11,616 nt of DNA, taken from contig JACCRJ010000262.1 in the NCBI GenBank assembly GCA_013813615.1, positions 1 to 11,616 on the forward strand. The letters run 5' to 3'. The notes beneath the pieces are model-generated. The model had not been told where the DNA came from and searched no databases. It worked only from the letters and a program-made list of their open reading frames with translations. Made by a program: the position numbers and the translations under genes. The stretch's first letter is position 1. The number at the start of each line of letters is the position of its first letter. This document shows positions 1-6,424 of the stretch, piece by piece. The stretch comes from Lautropia sp. GTDB taxonomy: Bacteria > Pseudomonadota > Gammaproteobacteria > Burkholderiales > Burkholderiaceae_E.

Positions 1-1848
1 GTGCAGCACTGGGTGTCGATCTCGGTGGTGCTGATGACTTTTCAGCTGCACCTGTCGCAGCATACCGGCGGCTTCGTCATTGCCCGGGATTCGCTCTCGC
101 GACTGGTGCCGATCGAGAACGCGGCGATGGCCGACCGCAGCGTGATCCAGTGGGACAAGGACGACCTGGATGCGCTGGGCTTGTTGAAGATCGATGTGCT
201 GGCGCTGGGCATGCTGTCCGCCATCCGCCGGGCGCTGGAACTGGTCGGCCGCCGGCGCCGGACCATCTTCCGCATCCAGGACGTGCCGGCGGAAGATCCG
301 GACACCTACGACATGATCTGCCGGGCCGATACCGTCGGCGTCTTCCAGATCGAGTCGCGCGCACAGATGAGCATGCTGCCCCGCCTGCAGCCGCGCCGGT
401 TCTACGACCTGGTAATCGAAGTCGCCATCGTCAGGCCGGGCCCGATCCAGGGTGGCATGGTCCACCCCTACCTGCGTCGCCGCCAGGGGCTGGAGGCGGT
501 GGAGTATCCGCGTGAGGAGATCAAGCCGGCACTGGAGCGGACCCTCGGCGTGCCCATCTTCCAGGAGCAGGTCATGCAAGTGGCCATCATGGCGGCCGGC
601 TTCACCCCCGGCGAAGCGGACCAGCTGCGCCGCTCCATGGCGGCATGGAAGCGCAAGGGCGGCCTGCACCAGTTCCAGCAGAGGGTGATCAATGGGATGC
701 TCGAACGCGGCTATGAACTCGAGTTCGCAGAGCGCATCTTCAAGCAGATCGAGGGTTTCGGGGAGTACGGCTTTCCGGAAAGCCATGCCGCCAGCTTCGC
801 CCTGCTGGTCTATGTCTCCTGCTGGCTCAAGCAGCATGAGCCGGCGGCTTTCCTGGCTGCCATGCTCAACTCGCAGCCGATGGGCTTCTACGCGCCGGCG
901 CAACTGGTGCGCGACGCCCGCGAGCACGGCGTCGAGGTGCTGCCGGCAGACGTCCTGATCAGCGACTGGGAATCGACGCTGGAGGAGAGCACCGGCGCGC
1001 CCGCCAGTGTCAGCGACGGCGTCGACTACCGGCCGCAGCCGGCGGTTCGCCTGGGGCTGGACCGGATCCACGGGCTCGGCGAAGCGGCGGGCCGCAGGAT
1101 CCTGGCCAGCCGCAGCAGCGTCCGCGCCGCGGCAGCGGCAGCCGACGCGACGAGTACAACCGACGCAGCCGACGCAACCGACTCCGACGCAACCGACGCA
1201 TCTGAAAAATTGCGGCGCTGGAGAAGCGTGGAGGAACTGGCCTTGCAGGCGCAGTTGAACCAGAAGGAGTTGCAGGCACTGGCGCGAGCCAATGCCCTGC
1301 GGGGACTGGCGGGCCATCGGATGAATGCAGCCTGGCAGGTTGCAGGGATCCAGCAGATGCCGGAACTGCTGGCGGCGGCGCCGGTGAATGAGGCGCCGCT
1401 GGCCCTGGCTGCCCCCACCGAAGCCGAAGACACCATCGCGGATTACCGGTCGCTCGGCATCCCGATGGGGCGCCACCCGCTGGCCCTGCTGCGCGACCAG
1501 CTGTCACGCTTCCGGGTGGTGCCGGCGGAAGTGCTACGGACCTATCCGCACGGGCGCCTGGCCCGTGTCAGCGGCCTGGTGACGCATCGCCAGAGACCGG
1601 AGACCGCGAGCGGCGTGGTGTTCCTCACGCTGGAGGACGACACTGGCGCAGTCAACGTGATCGTCTGGCCGGACCACCTGGAGCGCTACCGCAAGGAAGT
1701 GCTGGGCGGCAATCTGCTGACGGTCTACGGGACCTGGCAGCGGGACACCGACACCGGCGGCCAGGTGATGAACCTGCTGGCGCAGCGCATCGTCGACCAC
1801 AGCCACCTGCTGGGCGGGCTGGCAACCCGCAGCCGCGATTTCCGCTGA
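1..1848 (+). CDS. dnaE2: Error-prone DNA polymerase DnaE2, C-terminal part (5' end outside window)
   Basis: C-family DNA polymerase of the DnaE2/ImuC type, which carries out damage-induced translesion synthesis, usually with ImuA and ImuB. About 615 residues are visible; family members are usually a little over 1000, so the PHP domain and two palm aspartates lie upstream. The GTG at position 1 is not a real start. Visible residues: HLSQHTGGF at 17-25, the IQWDKDDLDALG stretch, and LLKIDVLALGM with D65 matching the third catalytic aspartate. IEGFGEYGFPESHAASFA and NSQPMGFY are DnaE2 hallmarks. A helix-hairpin-helix region follows (LGLDRIHGLGEAAGRR, about 350-366). The OB-fold lies at about 515-600, and the ending LATRSRDFR is typical of the family. 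Odd points: an Ala/Asp/Thr-rich insertion at 376-401, and FQLH where DnaE2 normally has FPRH (14-17). The gene converges on the methyltransferase gene. Family assignment is very secure. Confidence 0.95.
   Translation: MQHWVSISVVLMTFQLHLSQHTGGFVIARDSLSRLVPIENAAMADRSVIQWDKDDLDALGLLKIDVLALGMLSAIRRALELVGRRRRTIFRIQDVPAEDPDTYDMICRADTVGVFQIESRAQMSMLPRLQPRRFYDLVIEVAIVRPGPIQGGMVHPYLRRRQGLEAVEYPREEIKPALERTLGVPIFQEQVMQVAIMAAGFTPGEADQLRRSMAAWKRKGGLHQFQQRVINGMLERGYELEFAERIFKQIEGFGEYGFPESHAASFALLVYVSCWLKQHEPAAFLAAMLNSQPMGFYAPAQLVRDAREHGVEVLPADVLISDWESTLEESTGAPASVSDGVDYRPQPAVRLGLDRIHGLGEAAGRRILASRSSVRAAAAAADATSTTDAADATDSDATDASEKLRRWRSVEELALQAQLNQKELQALARANALRGLAGHRMNAAWQVAGIQQMPELLAAAPVNEAPLALAAPTEAEDTIADYRSLGIPMGRHPLALLRDQLSRFRVVPAEVLRTYPHGRLARVSGLVTHRQRPETASGVVFLTLEDDTGAVNVIVWPDHLERYRKEVLGGNLLTVYGTWQRDTDTGGQVMNLLAQRIVDHSHLLGGLATRSRDFR
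1141..1200 (+). repeat. Imperfect 15-bp tandem repeat inside dnaE2
   Basis: A GACGCA-rich stretch. The 14-mer CCGACGCAACCGAC occurs exactly at 1169-1182 and again at 1184-1197, giving a 15-bp period (five codons), with degenerate copies just upstream. It encodes a low-complexity Asp/Ala/Thr/Ser segment (residues 382-401) between the helix-hairpin-helix region and the next conserved helix. The period is a multiple of three, so copy changes would keep the frame. Confidence 0.8.
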
Positions 1849-1944
1849 GCGGCCCCCAGGCCCTTTGATGTAGCGGCATCGACCAGGCCGTCTGCTGCGG
1901 CATCGACTCGGGAATCGGCTGCGTCATCGAACCTCACCTGGCCG
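1849..1944. repeat. Degenerate 24-bp periodic repeat across the dnaE2/methyltransferase junction
   Basis: The 11-mer GCGGCATCGAC occurs at 1873-1883 and exactly 24 bases later at 1897-1907. A third related copy (GCGTCATCGAA) starts another 24 bases on at 1921, and GCGGC also begins at 1849. The full 24-bp units at 1873 and 1897 agree at about 18 positions; the outer copies are much weaker. The repeat fills the 75-base gap between the two convergent genes and runs into the last methyltransferase codons. I saw no convincing intrinsic terminator in this gap on either strand. Confidence 0.5.
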
Positions 1945-3339
1945 GTACTCGCCAAGCCGGTCCCTCGAGTAGCGTTCGGGCACCCCGACGAGGGCGAACC
2001 GCCCGACCAGCCTGAAAGCTGCCTCGCCGTCCGGATCCGCCAGCGCCTGCCGAAGCTCGCCCTTGTCGATCCGGCCCCGGCGCTCGGTGTAGCCCATCAT
2101 GTCGGCGTCTTCGTAGGCGCCCCAGATGGTTCGGTACATGAACTCGGTGGCAAGAGCATCCGGATCCTCGGCAGTGATGCTCAGCACTGAATTCAGCGCC
2201 AGCCTGCCCACGCCATGGCACCAGACACCTTCCTCCTCTCCCTGCGGGGACAGCGCCTGGGGATTCTTCACGAAACTGAGGTACTTCTCCCACCGCAAGT
2301 CCGCGAGCGGCACCGGTTCACGCTCCAGGGGATTGCGCCGTATCAGGTAGTCCTTCCACAACAGGGCGTCCGGGAAATAGCGTGACCGGTCGCGACCGAA
2401 CAGATCCCAATACTCCCCAGGCTGCAGTTCGCCACCGTGCGGCGGATTGGGCGGACCGACACCCTTGTTTCCGACCCGCGCAAAGATCGCGGGACGCCCT
2501 GGCGCCACCCGCTCCACCTCGTCGACCAGCAGCTTCTTGTCAGGCAGACACATGAAGGCATCGGAGCAGACTGCACCGGCGCAACTGTCGGCCTTCAATG
2601 GCAGTCGGGCGCCGGCATCGCAGCAGACGAACCACGCATCCGGCGCCACCCAATGGCGCGCACCCCACGCCTGGAAGAAGTTGAAATCAATGCCGATGGC
2701 AGGCGTGCTGCGGCGCCGCCGGGTCAGATAGTGTTCAATGTGGCCGTAGCCGCAGGCGATGTCGAGCACCGGTTTGTCGTCTGCACCGAACCGCTGCACC
2801 AGCGACATCGCCGACAGGTAGCGTGGCATCACGAAGCGGTTCAGAAAATACTCGGCAAGATAAGGATTGTTGCCCGAGCGTCTGGAATGGAAGAAGTTGA
2901 AGAGATCCTGCGCAAGCACCCCGTCCGTGCTGCCAGCTATCAGCCTTCTCAGCCCGGAGCGGGTCTGTGCCAGGCCAACCTTCGCGCTGAGCGACGACGG
3001 CCAGAGACCAGCGCGGCTCAGCCGTCCCTGCAGCGGGTACTTGCGAGGAAACACCAGGCAGTCGAGGAGGGCTTCGCCAGTGGCGCCGCGCTCGAGCGCC
3101 GCGACAAGTTCCGGCGCGCTGGGGCCGGTATGGAGAGCACCATCGTTCCAGTGCGAGAAAACTCCTACCCTGCCCTTCATCAGCACCGGCACATCGTCGA
3201 TCACCGGATACCTGCTGCAGCCACAGGAAAGGATGCCGTAGCGGCCCGGACCTGGCGATGGCGAAGAAGCCGCCCATGAAAAATCACCGCCGCATTCGGG
3301 GCATTGCAGGGCAGAGAGAAACGCGTCGAAGCTTCGCAT
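1924..3339 (-). CDS. SAM-dependent class I methyltransferase with N-terminal zinc-ribbon (Trm112-like) domain
   Basis: Predicted 471-residue soluble methyltransferase of unknown substrate. The N-terminus has a four-cysteine metal site, C13-x2-C16 and C39-x-C41, followed by YPVIDDVPVLM (44-54), the pattern of Trm112/UPF0434-type domains. Motif I of a Rossmann-fold methyltransferase is VLDIACGYG (191-199), followed by IGIDFNF and then CCDAGARLPLKADSCAG, which fits motifs II and III. The C-terminal part (from about residue 300) matches nothing I recognise. The start is the ATG at 3339; the frame stays open upstream but only as an out-of-frame shadow of metZ. It begins 50 bases after the metZ stop with no obvious promoter between, so co-transcription with metZ is likely. 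No strong Shine-Dalgarno is visible. The fold call is secure; a small-molecule, RNA or protein substrate are all possible. Confidence 0.85.
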   Translation of the reverse strand: MRSFDAFLSALQCPECGGDFSWAASSPSPGPGRYGILSCGCSRYPVIDDVPVLMKGRVGVFSHWNDGALHTGPSAPELVAALERGATGEALLDCLVFPRKYPLQGRLSRAGLWPSSLSAKVGLAQTRSGLRRLIAGSTDGVLAQDLFNFFHSRRSGNNPYLAEYFLNRFVMPRYLSAMSLVQRFGADDKPVLDIACGYGHIEHYLTRRRRSTPAIGIDFNFFQAWGARHWVAPDAWFVCCDAGARLPLKADSCAGAVCSDAFMCLPDKKLLVDEVERVAPGRPAIFARVGNKGVGPPNPPHGGELQPGEYWDLFGRDRSRYFPDALLWKDYLIRRNPLEREPVPLADLRWEKYLSFVKNPQALSPQGEEEGVWCHGVGRLALNSVLSITAEDPDALATEFMYRTIWGAYEDADMMGYTERRGRIDKGELRQALADPDGEAAFRLVGRFALVGVPERYSRDRLGEYRPGEVR

Positions 3340-3389: not shown

Positions 3390-4685
3390 TCAGCCGGCCG
3401 CCAGCCCGCGGCCCAGGTCGACGCAGACATCGGCGGGAGATTCCAGTCCCACCGCGATCCTGAGCAGCCCTTCGGTGATCCCGGCCGCCTCCCGAACCGG
3501 CGGCGCCATCCGGCCGTGCGTAGTGCTGGCCGGGTGCGTGATGGTGGTCTTCACGTCGCCGAGATTGGCGGTGATCGAGAGCAGGCGGCAGTTGTCGACT
3601 ACCCGCCAGGCGTGGGCGCGCGCCTCTTCCCGGCTGGCGCCCTTGACCTCGAAGCACAGCACCGGCCCGGCGGCACTCTGCTGGCGCGACGCGATCTCGA
3701 ACTGGGGATGGCTCTGCAGGCCCGGATAGAGCACCCGGTGCACCTGCGGCTGGCGCTCCAGCCACCGCGCCACTTCCAGTGCGTTCGCCGACTGTTGTCG
3801 CATCCTCAGCGGCAGCGTCTCCAGCCCCTTGGCCAGCACCCACGCGTTGAAAGCCGACAGCGTCGGACCGCCAAAGCGCAGCACCGGTTCGAGCTTCTCT
3901 TTCACATACTCGGTGGTGCCCAGCACGGCCCCACCCAGCACCCTGCCCTGCCCATCCAGATACTTGGTGGCCGAGTGCACGACGATGTCGGCGCCGAGTT
4001 CCAGCGGCCGCTGCAGCACCGGCGTGCAAAAACAGTTGTCCACCACCAGCAGCACGCCTCGGCGCTGCGCCAGTGCAGCCAGGGACTCCAGGTCCGCCAC
4101 TTCGGTGGAGGGGTTGGCCGGCGTCTCCAGGAACAGGAAGCGGGTGGTCGGCTCGATGGCGGCTTCCCACGCCGCCAGGTCCGTCAGCGGCACGTAGCTG
4201 GTGCGAACCCCATAGCGCTCGAAGAGGCCGAACAGCTGAACGGTGGTGCCGAACACTCCCATCGAGCTCACGATGTGGTCGCCGCTGCGGGTGAGGCTCA
4301 GGATCACCGACTGGATCGCCGACATGCCGGAGGCGGTCGCAAGGCAGGCCTGCGCCCCCTCGAGCGCAGCCAGCCGGTCCTGGAACAGCCGGACCGTGGG
4401 GTTGCGGTAACGGGAGTAGATGTAGCCGTCGATCTCGTTGGAAAACTTCGCGGCGGCGTTGGCGGCGCTGGTGTGCACGAAGCTCGATGTCAGGAACATC
4501 GGCTCGCTGTGCTCGCCATAGTTGGTTCGCTCGAAACCTGCCCGGACGGCGCGGGTTTCGAGATCGTAATCGCACGAGGTGAAATCCGGCGGGGCGAACT
4601 CGGCGGCGCGTGCGACCGCGGCGTCGAACGCCGCAGCGGCGCTGCCGGCCGAAGGATTGCTGGAGGGTGATCTCGACTTGTTCAT
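3390..4685 (-). CDS. metZ: O-succinylhomoserine sulfhydrylase
   Basis: PLP enzyme of the Cys/Met metabolism family, 431 residues, cytoplasmic. It converts O-succinylhomoserine and sulfide to homocysteine, bypassing cystathionine in methionine synthesis. Visible: YSRYRNPTV (90-98), the PLP-phosphate loop ATASGMSAI (116-124), DNCFCTPVLQ after the strand LLVVD, and HSATKYLDGQG with Lys241 as the Schiff-base lysine. SITANLGDVKTTITHPAS and the C-terminal AGITEGLLRIAVGLE are typical of MetZ rather than MetB. Homologues I recall are about 400 residues; the extra length is a Ser/Ala-rich N-terminal stretch of about 35 residues. The ATG at 4685 follows CCAGGACC. No alternative start lies in frame before a TGA near 4784. 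A SAM-II-like riboswitch lies upstream, which fits a methionine gene. O-acetylhomoserine as the true substrate cannot be excluded. Confidence 0.93.
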   Translation of the reverse strand: MNKSRSPSSNPSAGSAAAAFDAAVARAAEFAPPDFTSCDYDLETRAVRAGFERTNYGEHSEPMFLTSSFVHTSAANAAAKFSNEIDGYIYSRYRNPTVRLFQDRLAALEGAQACLATASGMSAIQSVILSLTRSGDHIVSSMGVFGTTVQLFGLFERYGVRTSYVPLTDLAAWEAAIEPTTRFLFLETPANPSTEVADLESLAALAQRRGVLLVVDNCFCTPVLQRPLELGADIVVHSATKYLDGQGRVLGGAVLGTTEYVKEKLEPVLRFGGPTLSAFNAWVLAKGLETLPLRMRQQSANALEVARWLERQPQVHRVLYPGLQSHPQFEIASRQQSAAGPVLCFEVKGASREEARAHAWRVVDNCRLLSITANLGDVKTTITHPASTTHGRMAPPVREAAGITEGLLRIAVGLESPADVCVDLGRGLAAG

Positions 4686-4771
4686 GGTCCTGGCCGGAAT
4701 GCTCTGCCGGCAATATGAAACCCGCTGCCTGCGCCACGAAGGCCGTCGCCGGACAAGCCGGTGGCGGCCAT
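4682..4771 (-). CDS. Possible 29-codon leader ORF whose stop overlaps the metZ start
   Basis: An ATG at 4771, five bases after the stop of the 13-codon leader ORF, opens a 29-residue Gly/Ala/Arg-rich frame (beginning MAATGLSGDG). It ends with a TGA that overlaps the metZ ATG as ATGA. This overlap is a common arrangement for translational coupling. There is no recognisable domain and no good Shine-Dalgarno, and the frame also covers a large inverted repeat. It may be chance open sequence in GC-rich DNA. Confidence 0.3.
   Translation of the reverse strand: MAATGLSGDGLRGAGSGFHIAGRAFRPGP
4741..4769. repeat. Inverted repeat in the metZ leader (12-bp arms, 5-base loop)
   Basis: The arms GGCCGTCGCCGG (4741-4752) and CCGGTGGCGGCC (4758-4769) flank ACAAG. 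In a plus-strand RNA all 12 positions pair if two G-U wobbles are allowed. In the metZ-sense RNA 10 of 12 pair, with two A-C mismatches. No T-run follows on either strand, so it is not a standard terminator. It lies between the riboswitch and the metZ start and could affect leader folding or processing. Confidence 0.6.
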
Positions 4772-4776
4772 GTGGA

Positions 4777-4818
4777 CTACTTCAGGAAAAACAGCGAGCC
4801 GGACGAACAACTGCTCAT
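4777..4818 (-). CDS. Possible 13-codon leader ORF directly after the riboswitch
   Basis: The ATG at 4818 lies two bases after the AGGGG (4825-4821) that closes the riboswitch pseudoknot. It reads MSSCSSGSLFFLK and stops at TAG (4779-4777). In known SAM-II switches the site sequestered by the pseudoknot serves the regulated gene's own start, so this ATG is where the metZ start would be expected, yet it is out of frame with metZ (133 bases upstream). The spacing of the Shine-Dalgarno-like site is shorter than usual. It may be a translated leader peptide or nothing. Confidence 0.3.
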   Translation of the reverse strand: MSSCSSGSLFFLK

Positions 4819-4820
4819 CG

Positions 4821-4876
4821 CCCCTGGATTTAGCTGTATTTCTTATGCGCTCGCAAGCCGGGACAAATCAGCGCAG
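4821..4876 (-). promoter_or_regulatory. SAM-II (SAM-alpha type) riboswitch aptamer upstream of metZ
   Basis: Read on the minus strand, P1 is a perfect 6-bp stem, TGCGCT (4875-4870) with AGCGCA (4851-4846). The loop begins GATTT and contains CCC (4862-4860) and TTGC (4856-4853). After P1 come AAGAAAT, AGCTAAA (4835-4829) and AGGGG (4825-4821), whose G run can pair with CCC to form the H-type pseudoknot. These blocks (CTGATTT, CC, TTGC-R-AGCGC, an A-rich loop, GCTAAA, GGG) appear in the same order and similar spacing as in the published SAM-II metX aptamer, recalled from memory. SAM-II elements bind S-adenosylmethionine and repress methionine genes, usually by hiding the ribosome binding site. 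The position before metZ fits. No covariance-model search was run. Confidence 0.85.
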
Positions 4877-4881
4877 CCCCG

Positions 4882-4910
4882 AATATACCGCTAAACCCGG
4901 CTAGTCCTGT
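4882..4910 (-). promoter_or_regulatory. Candidate sigma70 promoter for the riboswitch-metZ transcript
   Basis: TATATT (4887-4882) is a good -10 hexamer in the only AT-rich patch of the purF-metZ gap. It would place the transcript start about 7 bases downstream, near 4875, at the 5' base of the riboswitch P1 stem. The -35 region is poor: with a 17-base spacer it would be ACAGGA (4910-4905), overlapping the purF stop codon. The placement is the main support. Confidence 0.4.
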
Positions 4911-6424
4911 ACAGCCGAAAACTTCAGGTTCATCTGGTTCCGGTCAGCGTCTTCCGCGAGCCTGCTCACCAGGAGGCGCGCATTCTCGATCCGATCGAGG
5001 TATGCCGGCGTGATGTCGCCGGTCACGTATTGACCGTCGAAGCAGGAGGCGTCGAACTGCTTGACCCGCGGCCCCGCATCCCGCACCGCCTGCTTCATCG
5101 CGTCGATGCTCTGGTAGAGCAGCGCATCGGCGCCGATGGCAATCCGTATATCCTCGTCGCTGCGGCCGTGGGCGATCAGTTCGTCGCGGGTCGGCATGTC
5201 GATGCCGTAAACGTTGGGATAGCGGATCGGCGGCGCCGCCGACGCGAAGAAGACCTTGTTGGCACCGGCCTCGCGCGCCATCATCACGATCTCGCGCGAC
5301 GTAGTGCCGCGCACGATCGAGTCGTCCACCAGCAGTACATTCTTGCCCTTGAATTCGATGCTCATGGCGTTGAGCTTCTGGCGGACGGATTTCTGGCGCA
5401 CCGCCTGGCCGGGCATGATGAAGGTACGGCCGACATAGCGGTTCTTGATGAATCCTTCGCGGTAGTTCAGCCCCAGGCGCATCGCCAGCTGCATTGCCGA
5501 CGGCCGCGAGGTGTCCGGTATCGGCATCACCACGTCGATCTCGCCGGTACGCCAGGCACTGCGCACCGTCTCCGCCAGGTTCTCGCCCAGCTTGAGGCGC
5601 GCGTCGTAGACCGACGTGCCGTCGATGACCGAGTCCGGACGCGCGAAGTAGACGTACTCGAAGATGCACGGGCTCAGCTGCGATTGAGCCGCGCACGGCT
5701 GGCTGTAGAAGTTGCCTTCGAGGTCGACAAAGATGGCCTCGCCGGGTGCGACGTCACGCACGAAGCGAAAGCCCGAGCCCTCGAGCGCGACCGATTCCGA
5801 GGCGATCAGGTATTCGGTGCCGGCCTCGGTCTCTGCAATGCCGTAGCAGATCGGGCGGATCCCGTAGGGATCTCGAAAACCCAGGACGCCGTAACCGGCA
5901 ATCTCGACCACGCAGGCATAGGCGCCGCGAACCCGCTGCTGCAATACCGCCACCGCCTTGAAGATCGTGGCCGGATCGAGGGAAATACCGGACGCGTTGG
6001 CCTGCAACTCGTTGGCGAGTACGTTGAGCAGGACCTCGGAGTCGGAGTCGGTGTTGATGTGGCGCCGATCCAGCCGGAACATCTCGTCCTTCAACTCCGC
6101 CGAATTGGTCAGGTTGCCGTTGTGCGCCAAAGTCAGGCCGAACGGCGCATTGACGTAGAACGGCTGCGCCTCCTCGCCGTTGGAGGCGGAGCCGGCAGTC
6201 GGATAACGCACATGGGCGATGCCGGAATTGCCGGGCAGCGCCCGCATATTGCGCGTCCTGAAGACGTCTCGCACCAGCCCGTTGCCCTTCTGCATGGCAA
6301 ACGCCCGGCCGGTACAGGTCGCGATGCCGGCGGCATCCTGGCCGCGGTGCTGCAGCAGCAGCAGGCTGTCGTACAGGAGCTGGTTCACCGGGGTCCGGGC
6401 AACGACACCAAGAATTCCACACAT
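4901..6424 (-). CDS. purF: Amidophosphoribosyltransferase
   Basis: First committed enzyme of purine synthesis. It transfers the amide nitrogen of glutamine to PRPP to give 5-phosphoribosylamine. The protein has 507 residues, close to the 505 of E. coli PurF. It starts MCGILGVV, so Cys2 becomes the N-terminal nucleophile after removal of Met; there is no propeptide. LQHRGQDAAGIAT, HVRYPTAGS and LAHNGNLTN are glutaminase-domain motifs. The phosphoribosyltransferase domain carries the PRPP loop VLLVDDSIVRGTTS (363-376), with GFIKNRYVGRTFI before it. It lies 50 bases downstream of cvpA, the classical cvpA-purF pair. AGGA about ten bases before the ATG is a possible ribosome binding site. I saw no convincing PurR operator or intrinsic terminator. 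Confidence 0.98.
   Translation of the reverse strand: MCGILGVVARTPVNQLLYDSLLLLQHRGQDAAGIATCTGRAFAMQKGNGLVRDVFRTRNMRALPGNSGIAHVRYPTAGSASNGEEAQPFYVNAPFGLTLAHNGNLTNSAELKDEMFRLDRRHINTDSDSEVLLNVLANELQANASGISLDPATIFKAVAVLQQRVRGAYACVVEIAGYGVLGFRDPYGIRPICYGIAETEAGTEYLIASESVALEGSGFRFVRDVAPGEAIFVDLEGNFYSQPCAAQSQLSPCIFEYVYFARPDSVIDGTSVYDARLKLGENLAETVRSAWRTGEIDVVMPIPDTSRPSAMQLAMRLGLNYREGFIKNRYVGRTFIMPGQAVRQKSVRQKLNAMSIEFKGKNVLLVDDSIVRGTTSREIVMMAREAGANKVFFASAAPPIRYPNVYGIDMPTRDELIAHGRSDEDIRIAIGADALLYQSIDAMKQAVRDAGPRVKQFDASCFDGQYVTGDITPAYLDRIENARLLVSRLAEDADRNQMNLKFSAVQD

Follow-up and report, generated by a model that had tools for sequence, protein, structure and literature searches.

A probable SAM-II riboswitch with an odd leader ahead of metZ, from what seems to be one betaproteobacterial element under three names

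Described SAM-II riboswitches and kindred elements

The SAM-II riboswitches, filed in Rfam as SAM_alpha (RF00521), have in common with the locus described here a P1 helix, the conserved blocks GAUUU, CUUGC and GCUAAA, the place of a second pairing (P2), a methionine gene downstream, and a -10-like box before P1. Their occurrence outside the Alphaproteobacteria was reported between 2005 and 2009: in a paper of 2005 (PMC1273637), in another that gives Alpha- and Gammaproteobacteria as well as Bacteroidetes and mentions platforms of the terminator type for Alpha- and Betaproteobacteria (PMC2258182), and in a third for Alpha-, Beta- and Gammaproteobacteria (PMC2704228).

Two switches of S. meliloti (PMC9373788) are also close to this locus. 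That of metA, a tested SAM-II switch whose target start codon lies 74 nt further downstream, resembles the present locus in that its Shine-Dalgarno-like P2 strand is accompanied by an AUG, with the true start far downstream. That of metZ has the same class and target, and differs in its predicted typical terminator and its alphaproteobacterial host.

Two elements published under other names also come close. The metXZ element (PMC4239095) shares metX and metZ, the taxa, a set of six conserved regions in which 1 pairs with 4 and 2 with 6 (a pseudoknot), and a terminator behind; it was presented there as new, the Rfam scan of that paper having located SAM_alpha in Rhizobiales and Rhodobacterales alone, and we liken it to SAM-II by description and infer the identity. 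The second, Bp2_287 (RF02424, Bp2_Cand287_SIPHT), was reported in 2012 as an sRNA lying ahead of methionine genes, in a paper that names purF, metZ and metX in a figure legend and suggests a cis element (PMC3521395), and a review of 2024 gives it as a synonym of RIT77 and marks it as expressed (PMC10987360). It occupies the same purF-metZ gap in Burkholderia, where an aptamer lies under its match on the metZ strand, and it differs in that it matches the opposite strand and is catalogued as an sRNA.

The locus considered here lies in the window, i.e., the whole stretch of 11,616 nucleotides that was analysed. We conclude with high confidence that its purF-metZ gap holds a SAM-II riboswitch, transcribed from a promoter of its own, by which abundant SAM would turn metZ expression down. 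What the data show are the aptamer with its conserved blocks, the covariation of P1, the presence of metZ downstream, and the homologous copies found before metX and metZ in relatives, and from these we infer SAM binding, the promoter and the repressive sign. Apart from its odd leader the window copy is ordinary, and its kind is already known.

The aptamer, its promoter and its neighbours

Both the reading of the blocks and the Rfam SAM_alpha model place a SAM-II aptamer at 4876-4820 of the minus strand. A sequence-only reading had proposed a SAM-II type riboswitch ahead of metZ, and its blocks and positions are correct: P1 (TGCGCT 4875-4870 with AGCGCA 4851-4846), GATTT, CTTGC, GCTAAA, and the CCC/GGGG pair follow in order on the minus strand. 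The features of the aptamer and of its surroundings are as follows.

4817..4876, minus strand: SAM-II aptamer, extent of the match to model R1 (RF00521 and R1)
4870..4875, minus strand: 5' strand of P1, UGCGCU (Rfam match; P1 covariation, 71 sequences)
4865..4869, minus strand: conserved GAUUU (alignment A1)
4860..4864, minus strand: 5' strand of a possible P2 pseudoknot, GUCCC (could pair with GGGGC 4820-4824, -6.5 kcal/mol)
4853..4857, minus strand: conserved CUUGC in loop 1 (alignment A1)
4846..4851, minus strand: 3' strand of P1, AGCGCA (Rfam match; sole UA inner pair, changed on both sides)
4829..4834, minus strand: conserved GCUAAA (identical in all 71 aligned copies, the window's included)
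4820..4824, minus strand: 3' strand of the possible P2 pseudoknot, GGGGC (sequence and pairing energy)
4882..4887, minus strand: -10-like box TATATT (sequence; predicted transcription start near 4876, at the foot of P1)
3390..4685, minus strand: metZ, O-succinylhomoserine sulfhydrylase, the gene that the switch would regulate (NCBIfam PRK08133, 627 bits, cut-off 522)
4901..6424, minus strand: purF, the upstream neighbour (TIGR01134, above cut-off)
1924..3339, minus strand: methyltransferase-domain gene 3' of metZ (Pfam Methyltransf_25 and _11, above cut-off; start chosen by hand)

When the window was compared with all Rfam families, RF00521 was the sole one to pass its own cut-off, at 4812-4884 of the minus strand, where it scores 36.2 bits (window E 3.1e-5) and so exceeds the cut-off of 36 by only 0.2 bits; neither SAM-V nor any other SAM family of Rfam had a match above cut-off in the window. 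The covariance-model search by which the sequence-only reading was to be checked thus came out in its favour. No other match to RF00521 was found in the organism's own assembly, which has 3.28 Mb and is 82% complete. The window has a single instance of the core pattern GATTT-N4-14-CTTGC-N10-28-GCTAAA, and none of 200 dinucleotide shuffles contains it. With R1, a model built from alignment A1 (71 non-redundant copies including the window's, near-identical ones having been removed beforehand), the match spans 4817-4876 of the minus strand with 60.0 bits (E 7.2e-14 in the own genome, R1 E-values being rough); because the training copies include the window's, this score is not independent, as the Rfam score is.

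Of the two pairings whose conservation in relatives was to be expected, P1 is borne out by covariation. It is paired in 97.7% of cells of the 71 copies, three of its pairs are changed on both sides, and its covariation score of 0.127 is reached in 0 of 500 shuffles, which ignore relatedness, and by no slid version (at most 0.047). The innermost pair is U-A in the window copy alone among the 71. Within the nine short-loop copies alone (eight metZ-linked ones plus locus L126) the covariation of P1 is not clear, as 41 of 500 shuffles score equally high.

For P2 the permutation tests are not significant. CCC 4862-4860 lies opposite GGGG 4824-4821 and can be extended to five base pairs (GUCCC 4864-4860 with GGGGC 4824-4820), a pseudoknot that we regard as possible in the window copy from its sequence; in the Rfam consensus the P2 region is longer by three bases per strand. 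At least three of four P2 pairs can form in each of the nine short-loop copies (the window's among the eight metZ-linked ones), and loops in this set fit the tails of other copies similarly, 170 of 720 permutations (six groups) being as good. Over 89 copies the observed mean is -3.69 kcal/mol and that of 200 permutations -3.27 +/- 0.18 kcal/mol, a distance of about 2.3 SD, and at least one of the permutations is better than the observed value. These 89 copies are what remained after two loci without the core blocks, L131 and L135, both with unclassified downstream genes, were removed.

The TATATT box at 4887-4882 suggests that the RNA probably begins at P1. A TAnnnT box starts 8-18 nt 5' of P1 in 62 of the 89 copies, the window's included, whereas an equally wide control stretch, 38-48 nt before P1, has one in 7 of 89; a generic promoter scan returned no full -35/-10 site near the aptamer. 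The same layout, with the -10 box before P1, was described by Corbino 2005 (PMC1273637).

The identity of metZ, proposed from sequence, is confirmed by PRK08133, and its ATG at 4685 is the earliest ATG, GTG or TTG after the in-frame stop. The repressive sign of the control is what the riboswitch class and the genes would lead one to expect. SAM control had also been suggested as probable for the methyltransferase gene, and here the case is weak: the domains are present, and the gene lies on the same strand as metZ with a possible start about 50 nt past it, which makes it a possible operon partner, whereas a search of 29 related loci, some of them with little DNA downstream, found such a gene behind metZ in none; the gene may therefore be a local addition at the window. 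The gene order, in which purF and metZ are confirmed and the other names are assigned from the sequence, is presumably trpA-accD-folC-dedD-like-cvpA-purF-metZ, and positions 1-1848 (plus strand), at the left edge, resemble the end of what we take to be an error-prone, DnaE2-like DNA polymerase.

The leader and the ways in which it might act

Between the aptamer and metZ the leader differs from the RF00521 pattern in having no free-standing terminator, only an imperfect hairpin that shares a strand with P2, and in the 134 nt that separate the possible P2 from the metZ start codon. Three features are to be considered.

4792..4826, minus strand: imperfect terminator-like hairpin sharing the 3' strand of P2, followed by UUUUU 4791-4787
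4777..4818, minus strand: possible 13-codon leader ORF, beginning 2 nt past AGGGG (sequence)
4682..4771, minus strand: possible leader ORF of 29 codons, its TGA overlapping the ATG of metZ (sequence)

As the hairpin is modest, alternative folds exist and the ORFs form a chain, we divide our expectation about the platform among three readings. The foremost, held tentatively and at somewhat less than even chance, is ribosome loading through AGGGG (A4825-G4821, minus strand), a Shine-Dalgarno-like stretch that overlaps the P2 3' strand. With SAM bound, P2 would hide AGGGG beside the AUG, and fewer ribosomes would load on the leader, which would lower the translation of metZ 134 nt downstream; the metA switch of S. 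meliloti offers a precedent for action on a distant start. The spacing of 2 nt between AGGGG and AUG is short. The 13-codon ORF ends 5 nt from the 29-codon one, and the stop of the latter overlaps the metZ start as ATGA; a comparable chain arises in 128 of 5000 dinucleotide-shuffled leaders, a post hoc count on one sequence, and no relative among the ten metZ-linked copies that were read has a leader like the window's.

Nearly as likely is conventional attenuation by the same aptamer, with SAM favouring termination at the 4826-4792 hairpin and its UUUUU. The relatives speak for it: of 89 copies, the window's included, 79 carry a T-run no more than 110 nt from GCUAAA, and 48 of the 79 also have a flush hairpin at z <= -2 (a survey whose automatic anchor is misplaced in a few rows, e.g., L029, L119, L120, L126 and L136), the other nine metZ-linked copies of the family show by eye a hairpin and a T-rich tail between aptamer and gene, and the S. 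meliloti metZ switch is predicted to terminate (PMC9373788). In the window, too, the hairpin is flush with the U run and lies 37 nt past GCUAAA, inside the range of the relatives. However, it requires the 3' strand of P2, so SAM-bound P2 would weaken it, which gives the wrong sign. Its stability is modest (-15.1 kcal/mol, z -1.99; -15.5, z -1.7 by a second estimate), and a terminator scan of the leader returned 0 sites. When the first 90 nt of the leader are folded without constraints, the minimum-energy structure (-25.6 kcal/mol) keeps P1 and ties the U run into a helix with AAAUACAGC, and a fold made to resemble the SAM-bound state (P1 kept, P2 and pocket held out) yields a 7-bp hairpin and no terminator. 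An antiterminator pairing the CUUGCGGGC of the aptamer with the terminator was rejected as a candidate: 91 of 100 shuffles do at least as well as the window, the median being 0.32, and only 12 of 79 copies stand at or below 5 of 100 shuffles.

The third reading, a platform other than ribosome loading or attenuation, or no platform at all, we consider rather unlikely. Less likely still is a leader-peptide relay, in which the SAM signal would pass through the 13- and 29-codon ORFs to metZ; P2 with SAM would mask the AGGGG of the 13-codon ORF, and translational coupling through the 29-codon ORF would carry the signal over the 134 nt. This we hold to be improbable, its basis being the arrangement of the ORFs.

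It might also be argued that the aptamer is a relic, recognizable in sequence and without control of metZ, given that the genus-mates lack the switch, that the platform is weak and the leader long, and that the window differs at 6 of the 16 positions that at least 90% of the 71 copies share. Yet two of these six are the compensated P1 pair, and GAUUU, CUUGC and GCUAAA are intact; the intact blocks together with the compensatory change favour selection as the reading, and we give the relic very little credence. Sensing of a related ligand such as SAH in place of SAM is the least credible of all, as the three blocks are intact in the window and the A. tumefaciens prototype strongly discriminates against SAH (PMC1273637). 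A switch that binds SAM, with ribosome loading as the foremost candidate for its platform, thus stays the preferred reading. GAUUU belongs to the SAM pocket in SAM-II structures.

Relatives, and three names for what seems one element

The sequence-only reading placed the window in a beta- or gamma-type gene context, and the host indeed looks like a betaproteobacterium, on account of the 23S signature of its relatives and of the gene order. At the base probed in 23S rRNA, A marks Beta- and T Gammaproteobacteria. Among 15 genomes (own, genus, family and order), AAACGAAGTGGGAAGGC was found in the presumed 23S rRNA of six, the G variant in two and the T form in none, and seven, the own genome among them, gave no match.

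That reading also held such a distribution to be noteworthy, a view that is not supported, because SAM-II is common in the kin of this organism and was already published beyond the Alphaproteobacteria. At E <= 0.001, RF00521 is found in 78 of 150 kin genomes, the own one included, and above cut-off in 44 (with strict filters, by which weak matches are lost), and R1 in 115 of the 150, the own one again included, a count that is not independent for the many genomes that trained R1. Across the class 369 genomes were scanned with RF00521, the own included; 118 have a match at E <= 0.001 and 31 one above cut-off, and none of 14 control genomes has a match. The genus-mates stand apart: 0 of 8 carry the switch by either RF00521 or R1, and R1 without filters revealed no aptamer at their 4 metZ and 8 metX loci, a close MetZ (67-69% identity) being present in four of the eight and MetX in all.

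The genes downstream of 91 RF00521 matches, the window's included, were sorted by tblastn into 53 MetX-like, 22 MetZ-like (among them L077 at just 34% identity), and 5 MetH-like, the remaining 11 being unclassified; NCBIfam bears out the MetX reference, and the name MetH is presumed. SAM-II ahead of a MetH-like gene (L028, L095, L111, L120 and L136) is a target that the sequence-only reading did not mention. A search with MetZ matched in 74 of 74 genomes of the family, many with paralogues only, and R1 on 53 metZ loci of the family placed SAM-II before metZ in ten: the window, L144, L145, L146, L186, L188, L192, L195, L197 and L204 (of the 53, L202 holds no upstream DNA and L184 about 120 nt). 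Matches to MetZ among named relatives amount to 11 loci, with 61% identity at best, and named Burkholderiales metZ genes in plasmid and chromid records reach about 60% (tblastn).

Three of these gaps between purF and metZ, in Burkholderia arboris, B. stagnalis and Caballeronia, bear on the published names. On the strand opposite metZ, RF02424 scores 203.7, 201.4 and 96.4 bits, respectively (cut-off 70), covering a SAM-II aptamer and a terminator before metZ (L221:2246-2419, L222:2259-2432 and L223:2221-2426), and on the metZ strand R1 scores 37.0, 32.0 and 31.3 bits; PurF is encoded upstream in all three. The R1 match of B. arboris reads GAUUUGAU-AUCAGCUUGCGGACGC-...-GCUAAAGCG, and that of Caballeronia spans P1 and loop 1 only, the next loop being longer. 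P1 in these Burkholderia copies is GCGUC/GACGC, a compensated change, and they differ from the window by an insertion between P1 and GCUAAA. RF00521 has no match at E <= 0.1 in the three gaps, nor at E <= 0.001 across the whole B. arboris record. Below its cut-off, RF02424 also matches the strand opposite SAM-II at three of ten loci at E <= 0.01 (L024, L008 and L009) and at five of ten at E <= 1 (L122, L137, L138, L106 and L127).

By analogy of description, the metXZ element of the Betaproteobacteria is very probably the same RNA as SAM-II, and it seems that one betaproteobacterial SAM-II riboswitch goes under the names SAM_alpha, metXZ element, and sRNA Bp2_287; among the open-access papers searched we found no statement that equates the three. 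The Rfam model misses or under-scores many copies, as the difference between 78 and 115 of the 150 kin genomes with the kin-trained model indicates. If the three names are one, the methionine control that has been described in Burkholderia and its kin as a new element or as an sRNA could be tested as plain SAM sensing, and the Bp2_287 sRNA that is expressed may, if it lies on the metZ strand, be a metZ transcript that stops early, like RZ of S. meliloti.

Tandem SAM-II-like aptamers were seen at L110, L122, L137 and L139 as pairs of R1 matches, and at L081, L098 and L106 with the second aptamer found by eye. The first has a terminator; the second reads about UUAAUCGACAACUUGC...GCUAAAGCG, often with a changed GAUUU, and lies shortly 5' of a protein of 95-112 aa that starts with M(F/Y)DC, for which none of seven had a Pfam match at E <= 1 and which is followed by what we take to be a MATE-type transporter gene. 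Similar pairs precede an unrelated 167-aa protein without a Pfam match above cut-off (L138:1669-2169) and, at L127, a 43-codon ORF and a protein presumed to be HD-domain-like. Tandem SAM-II was dropped as a novelty, as 44 cases are in print (PMC9481103).

A copy near the window's type (L126, G012:C46) stands ahead of a non-methionine gene, presumably integrase-like. A blastn comparison of a relative's aptamer with plasmid records gave three weak records, and a SAM-II aptamer lies on a plasmid of Legionella adelaidensis (L224:2515-2578), with 65.1 bits by R1 and 31.4 by RF00521, the latter below cut-off, ahead of a gene that, we assume, encodes a protein resembling the ABC ATPase MetN.
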